Assembly: GCF_000817785.2 (NCBI RefSeq)
Contig: NZ_JTCM02000011.1
Coordinates: 1-64,000 of the forward strand
Length of the DNA: 64,000 nucleotides
DNA from: Hassallia byssoidea VB512170
GTDB lineage: Bacteria > Cyanobacteriota > Cyanobacteriia > Cyanobacteriales > Nostocaceae
Direction of reading: 5' to 3'
Shown here: positions 39,353-41,883 of the stretch, piece after piece
How the letters are laid out: each line of letters starts with the position of its first letter
Position numbering within the stretch: position 1 is the stretch's first letter
The notes under the pieces: model-generated
What the model was told of the DNA's origin: nothing
What the model saw: the letters and a program-made list of their open reading frames with translations, nothing else
The model's database searches: none
Made by a program: the position numbers and the translations under genes

Positions 39353-41883
39353 ACCGCACCCGCACACACCACCCGAAAACCGATAACGCTGAGATTGCCG
39401 ACGGGGTAGGCGTAGTAGCGATAAGCACAACGGCAGTAGCCAGGATTGTAGTACCAAGAACCACCGCGCAGTAGCCGATAATTAGAATCATTATCTATCC
39501 ATGCACTTCCATTTCCAGGCGCTTTTTGGTAGCTGTCATGCCAAGTATCTTGACACCACTCCCAAACGTTCCCGTGCATGTCATATAATCCAAAGCCGTT
39601 TGGTGGAAAACTTCCTATTTCTGTTGTTTCTCGACGTTTTTTGCCCTTTGGCTCAGAAGCGTAGGTGTAATTCCCATCGTAGTTAGCTAACTCAGTTGTA
39701 ATCGTCTCCCCGAAGTGAAATGGTGTATTTGTTCCTGCTCGACAAGCGTATTCCCATTCCGCTTCACTAGGTAAGCGATATTTCCGCCCAGTCTTTTGAC
39801 TGAGTTTGTTGCAAAACTCAACCGCGTTTTTCCAGGAAACTGACTCAACAGGAAGTTTTTTTCCCTTGAAATTGGATGGATTTGTACCTATCACTTGTTG
39901 ATACTGTTCTTGGGTGACTTCAAACCTGCCCATAAAAAAAGCAGGCACATTTACATCGTGCTGCCGACTTTCATCTGAGTTTCGACTTTTCTCTTCTGAT
40001 GGTGAACCCATCTTAAAAGAACCACCAGGAATAGAGACCATTTCTAGAGTTACACCATTACCCAAGTCCTCTTTAAAAAATTTGGCTTGGTTGTTAGAAT
40101 CTCGTTTAATTACCTGTCCATTTTTATCTACCGTTACCGTTTCAAACTCAACATTCGACAAGGGTAATCCAAATACTTTCTCGGTTGCTAAGAATGTGTA
40201 TTTAGGTTCTGCTACAGAAATTGGTGTTGGTGTTGGTGTTGGTATCGGTGTCGGTGTCGGTGTCGGTGTCGGTGTCGGTGATTGACCCTTAAAAATTTCA
40301 CGACCTACCACTGCTGTCACTAAACCTACACCTCCCAAGCCAACCCATTTCAAAAACTTTTGTCGGGTTATTCGCTCTTGAGTCGGTTGAGTGGATTGAT
40401 TAACACTTGGCTGCTGAATCGGAGATTTAATAGTTTCTACTATTGATGCCAATCTAGCTTCAATTGCTATGACTTCTACTAGTAACGCAAATTTAGCTTC
40501 AATTGCTACTGTGTCTATTTCTTTCAGTTTTAGAGTACGTTGAAGTTTCCTTAATCTCTGTCGAGAATCATAACTATCAAAGGAACTTCCAGTTTCAATT
40601 GTTTTCAAAAATTCTTCCTGATAATACTGCAACTTTTGTCGATCTTCTGCTTTTTGTATCTGTTCTACTCTCTGATATTCTGCTTGCCTTTGTGTCAGAA
40701 GTGGCTGTTCAATTTGCTCCATTTCATCGTTACTAAGTTGTAAAGATTGCTGCAATCGCTCTAATTTATTACGAGTTGCTTGATTGATGGGAAATTCTCG
40801 CTCAATTGCTTCCGAGAAAGCTTGCTGATAACGAACTAAATTCTGCCGATGTTCTTCTTGCCTTTGAGCAAACAGTGATTCTTGGACTGATTCAGAACTT
40901 AATGACCTACCTCCACTTGATGAAGTAACACGCTCATCAGGTGCGATTGTAAGTTCAAAACTTCCTTGTTGACGCAGTGCAATCCTTCCAATAGCGTCAA
41001 TTGCATCCCAATCAGTACGGGATACAGCTAGAACTCTCACCCATAATTGTTTTGCTAATGATAAATCACCTTTATTTTCAGCTTGAGATGCTTGATACTT
41101 CAATGGCTGTACATCTCTAAGTGTGGCAGTTTGCTCTAATAAAATAAAATACATTTTATAAGGTGGCTCTGCCTGGAGGTAAGGATTTTGTGCCGGCTTT
41201 CCATAGCGAGTATTCAAATCGGGAACTTGGTAACGTAAATATTGTTCTAAACGCTCTACTGTGGCACAATTAGCCTCTCCCTGTAGTCGGAATCCTTCTA
41301 ATAGCGAATGGGTGAATGACCCATGTTGTAATTCTTCAATCTCCCAAGATTTTTGGTTAGCTGTGCAGGAATAAAAGGTAATAACTCCTTGATACCTTTG
41401 TTCACCAATTCCTAATCCTGCCCGACTACTTTCATCTCGGCAAGCATCCAAAAACAACACTACATTGTCAGCACCACTGCGCCGCAATCTTTGGGTTACA
41501 AAATCAACAGAAATAGCAGTATGTTCTATGTCTCCTGGGTCACTGTCTGAGAACATTAAATAATCTTGATCTTTATATCGATTGCCATGACCTGCAAAGA
41601 AAAACCATAAATTATCTTCTGGCTTTAATAAAGGAGGTTGAATATTCTCAAACTGTGCCCGTAAGAATCGCCATAGGTGTCCGCGTGTAGGTTGAGTAGG
41701 AATTGGCGGATTAGCTGGAATTGGGGCAGAATCGTCAGTGAAGAGGAAAACTTGATCAAATCTGGCTTCTTGTTGAAACCAAGTTGCCATCACAGAAGCA
41801 TCTCGCTTGGCAAAGTTTAGCGATCGCAGGTTTTCATAGTGATTAATCCCAACAACAATCGCCCAATTCCTTCCCATATTCAA
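39337..41883 (-). CDS. Caspase-like/FGE (sulfatase-modifying) fusion protein with a variable C-terminus
   Basis: This 848-aa protein is a multi-domain orthocaspase. Residues 1 to about 250 form a C14 caspase fold with catalytic His99 (FFFAGHG) and Cys148 (LFLDACRD). Residues about 340-470 contain two related helical repeats with the phrases SLQLSNDEMEQIEQPLL and TLKLKEIDTVAIEAKF. A single membrane or anchor segment lies at about 511-527 (WVGLGGVGLVTAVVG). A Thr-Pro linker covers 536-555. Residues about 610-840 are an FGE-sulfatase/C-type-lectin-like domain (MVSIPGGSFKMGS, RLPSEAEWEYACRAG, GLYDMHGNVWEWCQD). The last 40 residues look like a diversity-generating retroelement variable region. A small Trypco1-like gene is 7 bp upstream. 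Protease activity is predicted from the dyad; a conflict or cell-death role is inference. Confidence 0.92.
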   Translation of the reverse strand: MNMGRNWAIVVGINHYENLRSLNFAKRDASVMATWFQQEARFDQVFLFTDDSAPIPANPPIPTQPTRGHLWRFLRAQFENIQPPLLKPEDNLWFFFAGHGNRYKDQDYLMFSDSDPGDIEHTAISVDFVTQRLRRSGADNVVLFLDACRDESSRAGLGIGEQRYQGVITFYSCTANQKSWEIEELQHGSFTHSLLEGFRLQGEANCATVERLEQYLRYQVPDLNTRYGKPAQNPYLQAEPPYKMYFILLEQTATLRDVQPLKYQASQAENKGDLSLAKQLWVRVLAVSRTDWDAIDAIGRIALRQQGSFELTIAPDERVTSSSGGRSLSSESVQESLFAQRQEEHRQNLVRYQQAFSEAIEREFPINQATRNKLERLQQSLQLSNDEMEQIEQPLLTQRQAEYQRVEQIQKAEDRQKLQYYQEEFLKTIETGSSFDSYDSRQRLRKLQRTLKLKEIDTVAIEAKFALLVEVIAIEARLASIVETIKSPIQQPSVNQSTQPTQERITRQKFLKWVGLGGVGLVTAVVGREIFKGQSPTPTPTPTPTPIPTPTPTPISVAEPKYTFLATEKVFGLPLSNVEFETVTVDKNGQVIKRDSNNQAKFFKEDLGNGVTLEMVSIPGGSFKMGSPSEEKSRNSDESRQHDVNVPAFFMGRFEVTQEQYQQVIGTNPSNFKGKKLPVESVSWKNAVEFCNKLSQKTGRKYRLPSEAEWEYACRAGTNTPFHFGETITTELANYDGNYTYASEPKGKKRRETTEIGSFPPNGFGLYDMHGNVWEWCQDTWHDSYQKAPGNGSAWIDNDSNYRLLRGGSWYYNPGYCRCAYRYYAYPVGNLSVIGFRVVCAGAVARTF
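39370..39465 (-). other. Putative DGR variable repeat in the FGE domain
   Basis: It encodes GGSWYYNPGYCRCAYRYYAY then PVGNLSVIGFRVV (residues 807-838). The codons at the exposed positions are TAC, TAC, AAT, GGC, TAC, TGT, TAT, TAC, TAC, GCC, TAC, GTC, GGC, AAT, CTC, AGC and GTT. These are all products expected if an AAC/AAT template is mutated at its first two adenines. The framework codons (GGSW, CR, GFRVV) are those conserved in C-type-lectin-fold variable proteins. No reverse transcriptase or template is in this window. Confidence 0.7.

Follow-up and report, generated by a model that had tools for sequence, protein, structure and literature searches.

The tail of one gene of Hassallia byssoidea VB512170 raises two questions: whether it is a variable repeat (VR) written by a diversity-generating retroelement (DGR) onto a predicted caspase protein, and whether it is still being diversified. 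The gene lies in the window, by which we mean the whole analysed stretch of 64,000 nucleotides. The original prediction answered both questions in the affirmative, and placed the diversification in trans because the window holds no reverse transcriptase (RT).

Architecture of the caspase-FGE gene

The sequence, frame, strand and codons of the tail are all as originally given. The interval 39370-39465 does encode residues 807-838, but the string quoted for it, GGSW...GFRVV, spans residues 807-839 and is off by one. The features of the locus, in window coordinates, are the following.

41891..42322 (-), small Pepco-domain protein directly upstream of the caspase gene (PF24393, E 6.5e-28)
39337..41883 (-), protein of 848 aa composed of a caspase (Peptidase_C14), a linker/hydrophobic segment and an FGE-sulfatase domain (Pfam)
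41434..41598 (-), His motif FAGHGN (from residue 96) and Cys motif LFLDACRD (from residue 143), found in the sequence
40303..40371 (-), hydrophobic segment ITRQKFLKWVGLGGVGLVTAVVG, residues 505-527, read from the sequence
39340..40200 (-), FGE/C-type-lectin-like domain, residues 562-848 (AlphaFold2 and Foldseek)
39371..39462 (-), VR core GSW..GFRV, 92 nt (template comparison, first 90 nt)
39337..39372 (-), GC-rich block and stop codon 3' of the VR, candidate initiation-of-mutagenic-homing (IMH) region (likeness to other variable proteins, VPs)
38319..39167 (-), ABC-2 permease downstream of the caspase gene (PF01061)

In Pfam searches with the 848-aa protein, Peptidase_C14 (PF00656) covers residues 5-238 (E 2e-19) and FGE-sulfatase (PF03781) residues 614-839 (E 5.3e-58). 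FAGHGN and LFLDACRD are presumably the His/Cys catalytic dyad motifs expected of a caspase, and segment 505-527 is a possible membrane or Tat-like helix. The caspase scored 65.4 bits with the model of EACC1-associated caspases (NF047832), under the cut-off of 140, and in this the protein differs from EACC1-type conflict systems. Residues 562-848 were modelled with a mean pLDDT of 91.6. Foldseek with this FGE model ranked PvdO (5hha) first and TvpA (2y3c), a DGR variable protein of Treponema denticola, third; in a sequence search TvpA came second (E 2.3e-29). PvdO, which is not a DGR protein, was thus closer than TvpA in both searches. As in DGR targets, the VR is located near the 3' end of the C-type-lectin-like domain.

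The Pepco gene also precedes the caspase gene in the congener G001, where reading of the sequence located a near-identical start of the ABC-2 permease downstream; we take this permease as a conserved flank that fixes the identity of the locus. An AMIN-domain protein with a proline-rich PPSNYN-type repeat region was observed at window positions 43254-44264.

The GC-rich block that follows the VR closely resembles that of two other VPs of Plectonema radiosum NIES-515 (G004) and of one VP of G011, and its role as an IMH region is a candidate assignment from this likeness. A hairpin-type element after the VR was rejected, as the DNA folded no better than shuffled sequences (z -0.16). Past the stop codon, at window positions 39250-39337, there is a CCCTTTGCACTTT-like run that occurs at the same place in four loci from different genera (L047, L087, L123, L132). 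Folding of this stretch gave no signal, and such runs past VP stop codons are possibly a cis element or a simple repeat.

Comparison of the tail with DGR templates

Templates (TRs) for comparison were selected by rule, as repeats with at least eight AAY codons whose upstream open frame is shorter than 80 codons (n = 40), and an adjacent RT was checked for part of them. The H. byssoidea tail was compared with the 30 templates of its own length, the best being that with the fewest non-A mismatches. Over residues 808-838, 18 of 28 adenines of the best template are changed in the tail, against 6 of its 62 remaining bases (Fisher 1.9e-7 for this template, chosen as the best of 30). The mismatches are therefore concentrated at template adenines, as in DGR targets, and here with respect to templates of other species. 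The template comes from Nostoc sp. JL34, where it adjoins an RT; when 92 nt are compared, three further templates share its count of six non-A mismatches. We assign these six mismatches to divergence between the available templates and the original one, no template of the same species being known. By a lenient test, every base of the tail is either the base found in some template of the 30 or derivable from an adenine there. Nearly all non-adenine positions of the tail agree with real templates of relatives, which upholds its identification as a DGR-type VR on a caspase protein.

The codons of the tail had been predicted to be reachable from AAC or AAT. Opposite the 12 AAY codons of the best template, the tail has TAC (six times), AAT, GCC, GGC, CTC, AGC and GTT, so that the prediction proved correct for 12/12, any difference lying in the first two bases. 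The third base is C or T at all 12 places, compared with 7, 7 and 11 of 12 in the three other 90-nt FGE tails of H. byssoidea, and with 972/1080 places over 90 VR-like tails from all the fetched loci. Cys819 (TGT) need not derive from an adenine, since TGT is already present at this position in the template of Nostoc sp. JL34.

As a positive control, we used pairs of TR and VR of equal length within cassettes of relatives. Mismatches fell at adenines only in 17 of 19 pairs; the other two gave 7/9 and 17/18. Other FGE paralogues of H. byssoidea served for comparison. Adenine sites are changed in their tails too (20/27 in C55, 18/31 in C201 and 21/31 in C178), with Fisher values of 1.1e-3, 6.8e-3 and 2.3e-4 in the three. 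Since the FGE fold varies in those loops, adenine-site enrichment alone is weak evidence, and the case for a VR rests on the scarcity of non-A changes and on the third-base rule. Non-A mismatches to the best template amount to 23/63 in C55, 17/59 in C201 and 16/59 in C178, as opposed to 6/62 in the caspase tail, whose fit therefore exceeds what the fold alone gives.

Search for DGR components

The draft assembly of H. byssoidea comprises 7.5 Mb in 219 contigs, with a completeness of 99.87%. A cyanobacterial-type DGR RT from a Fischerella plasmid was used as a query against 59 genomes, H. byssoidea included. Full-length relatives (65-77% identity) were found in 16 of the 59, and H. byssoidea is not among these 16. 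Its best match, on C176, had 27% identity (E 1.4e-8). Four RVT_1 matches occur in the genome. The C176 protein was rejected as a DGR RT because it looks more like the RT of a group II intron, although its 212 bits fall short of that model's cut-off of 300, and so was an RVT_1 piece on C203, which did not match the query at E 0.001, the C176 protein being the sole H. byssoidea match. The RT on C75 (L001:955-2367), a 470-aa retron-like protein whose best NCBIfam models (retron Ec67, TIR retron and retron St85) all scored below cut-off, was rejected as well. The search of the draft for Avd found none, its single match having 27% identity over 64 residues (E 0.02).

Templates such as GSWNNNPENCRSANRNNNNPDNDNNNIGFR, of varying class, were found near the RT in the majority of the stretches fetched (20, plus two from plasmids). 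When H. byssoidea was searched with the core TR pattern, allowing up to three mismatches, only a VR on C48 was recovered. DNA similarity to a real TR returned the VRs of C62 and C48, followed by matches at E 0.15 or worse, and the VR itself, an insensitive DNA query for an AAC-rich template, returned only itself and short matches. The original prediction had counted against itself a genome holding neither a DGR RT nor an AAC-rich template; in this assembly neither was found, and diversification in trans is left unsupported. The draft genome holds an A-type VR with no RT or TR, as is the case for leftover targets.

Among five members of the genus, H. byssoidea included, full-length DGR RTs were found only in Tolypothrix brevis GSE-NOS-MK-07-07A (G002), which has two, and none in P. 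radiosum, G001 or G003, whose assembly is 54% complete. The two T. brevis templates fit the H. byssoidea tail worse than the best template does (8 and 15 non-A mismatches). Neither has the class of the VR that T. brevis carries at the caspase locus, so that VRs for which no matching template was found occur in more than one species of the genus.

The caspase locus in related genomes

In 100-base windows, the caspase and its upstream flank are 88-99% identical between H. byssoidea and both T. brevis and P. radiosum, whereas from the VR onwards, as far as the stop codon, the sequences differ both in length and in class. The H. byssoidea tail belongs to a class of 30 residues (from GSW to GFR) ending in CAGAVARTF. 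Those of T. brevis and P. radiosum are of a 33-residue AERD class ending in CAVGRI, like the Fischerella plasmid template. The CAGA ending recurs in two further VPs of P. radiosum, located elsewhere in its genome. With one of these (L228), whose VR is of the H. byssoidea class, the H. byssoidea VR shows differences at 18/29 template-A sites and 6/61 other positions. The Fischerella sp. PCC 9431 (G008) homologue (C3) lies within about 7 kb of an RT and a template, which have a second VP near them as well. The homologue has the 30-residue VR class too, and its mismatches to the template fall at adenines in 17 of 17 cases (20/20 in the other VP). In G001 (C66, L019:1501-3075), the Pepco gene, the caspase and the permease are all present, and the C-terminus is an EAD9 domain (29.1 bits, cut-off 25); domain search reported no FGE domain at this locus.

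T. brevis and P. radiosum are the closest pair on caspase third positions (24 differences versus 32-33). Because of this, and because the Fischerella homologue shares the class of H. byssoidea, a change of VR class on the T. brevis/P. radiosum branch is slightly preferred from these alignments, although classes can recur.

The original prediction implied that the tail would evolve faster than the rest of the FGE domain. This holds for H. byssoidea versus T. brevis, where 11/255 residues differ in the caspase, 36/236 in the FGE body and 14/28 in the VR, three parts of one locus thus diverging to very different degrees. Third positions are changed in 11 of the 28 VR codons in this pair, because the two tails belong to different classes. 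The corresponding values are 15/255, 82/233 and 15/28 versus P. radiosum, and 35/246, 59/236 and 12/25 versus Fischerella sp. PCC 9431. It does not hold between T. brevis and P. radiosum (10/255, 78/233 and 9/31), where the VR does not outpace the FGE body. In this last pair (L021, L083), the contrast between FGE body and caspase suggests a recombined FGE domain. In an alignment of 59 FGE domains (58 and that of H. byssoidea, from 119 non-redundant domains found), the VR had a mean entropy of 1.85 bits, compared with 1.07 for the body.

The C201 FGE paralogue served as a control for these comparisons. Its tail shows 0/30 differences to those of G001 and T. brevis, with 7/210 and 12/210 differences in the body, and a single tail residue differs in Fischerella sp. 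PCC 9431, whose body counts (140-144/210) were excluded because counting was ungapped. The comparison was made without the P. radiosum orthologue (95% identity over residues 1-269), which the tail pattern missed. Judging by this conservation, the C201 tail looks like one with a fixed function. A tail similar to it was observed in Mastigocoleus (L161).

Origin and fate of the variable repeat

We consider it likely that the caspase tail is an orphan DGR target, once written by a DGR whose parts are gone from the genome or were never held by it, and now probably frozen. A cyanobacterial-type DGR would have written the VR on the FGE domain of a caspase effector by mutagenic retrohoming. With RT, Avd and template lost from, or never held by, the H. 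byssoidea genome, the binding surface would therefore probably be fixed and would evolve as an ordinary gene. The FGE domain may act as an input module, its specificity set by past action of the DGR. The tail would, we infer, bind a ligand and by doing so license the caspase, as part of a defence or cell-death response in which the upstream Pepco protein perhaps takes part. G001, with an EAD9 adaptor in the corresponding position, fits a sensor role of this kind, and the FGE/EAD9 difference lends support, short of proof, to the VR domain as the module through which the caspase effector receives its input.

That loops of an ordinary FGE tail vary by normal selection, with no DGR involved, is very improbable. 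It would explain why other paralogue tails show some adenine-site enrichment and why, between T. brevis and P. radiosum, the VR has changed no faster than the rest of the FGE domain, but it conflicts with the few non-A mismatches of the caspase tail (6/62, versus 16 to 23 of about 60 in the three paralogues), with third bases that are C or T at 12/12 places, and with a C201 tail that is identical in H. byssoidea and two congeners. If a DGR did write the tail, it might act still, from a replicon missing from the assembly. DGRs of this clade sit on plasmids, remote DGR targets have been published (PMC7517822), and the VR has kept an open frame and is followed by a block resembling those of other VPs, which would fit a living remote target as well. 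We nevertheless judge ongoing diversification in trans improbable, given that 7.5 Mb at 99.87% completeness contain no DGR RT, Avd or TR and that, among the genus members searched, a full-length DGR RT was found in T. brevis only, and not in G001, P. radiosum or the half-complete G003.

The tail could also have been acquired ready-made, by recombination from an already diversified VP, no DGR having acted at the locus in this lineage. T. brevis and P. radiosum do carry another VR class at the caspase locus, and two other P. radiosum VPs have nearly the post-VR block of H. byssoidea; yet the DGR-adjacent homologue of Fischerella sp. PCC 9431 is also of the 30-residue class, so H. byssoidea may simply keep the older class. 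Such an acquisition, which we regard as rather unlikely, is one form of the orphan-target reading, and the likelihoods given to the two overlap. More broadly, though only tentatively and with the doubts outweighing the support, the fixed caspase locus might be viewed as a socket for interchangeable inputs (within one genus, two VR classes or EAD9), in which specificities once made by a DGR persist as germline receptors when the DGR itself is lost. Should this be true, it would be as if recombination, between loci and between species, stored diversity already generated.

Returning to the orphan-target reading, the genomes form a series that can be used to ask what becomes of a diversified receptor once its mutator is lost: the Fischerella homologue is beside a DGR, T. 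brevis has DGR templates of another class, and no DGR RT was found in H. byssoidea and Plectonema.

Relation to known systems

Caspase-FGE targets of DGRs and leftover VRs have already been published, and the H. byssoidea tail adds another case. The survey of Vallota-Eastman et al. (2020; PMC7517822) describes orthocaspase-CLec DGR targets, dispersed paralogues and remote targets in cyanobacteria, and in Nostoc PCC 7120 a paralogue, all3226, with remnant TR-VR homology and no nearby RT. H. byssoidea shares with these VPs the orthocaspase N-terminus, the CLec/FGE C-terminus with its VR, and the dispersed paralogues; however, all 52 genomes of that survey have complete cassettes, and the H. byssoidea assembly has none. 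Treponema denticola strains without a core DGR hold leftover targets, one of which matches another template type (PMC4891356). These resemble our case in that they differ from the templates of other strains by A-type changes, that no RT or TR was found in the genome and that the templates are of several types, but they belong to a different phylum, and the H. byssoidea target is a caspase.

In Kaur et al. (2020, 2021; PMC7159879, PMC8195603), FGS domains are proposed as diversified sensors of invaders, and caspases with many exchangeable C-terminal domains are described. The FGS domain as diversified sensor, a putative role in our case, and the caspase as constant part are common to these conflict systems and to H. 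byssoidea, whose upstream partner is Pepco, a word absent from the main texts of both papers. DGR targets have further been proposed as antigen sensors in multicellular bacteria, with EADs described as adaptors (PMC10907252). CLec targets, peptidase effectors and adaptors are shared features; those loci have their DGRs, whereas the H. byssoidea draft has none.

A second variable repeat in the genome

The FGE paralogue on C48 (C48:7755-8489, L015) carries a VR of the AERD class, which differs from the Fischerella template at 15/32 adenines and 6/67 other bases. Together with the caspase VR, it suggests that relics of two template classes survive in H. byssoidea. The C48 paralogue contains one in-frame TGA.
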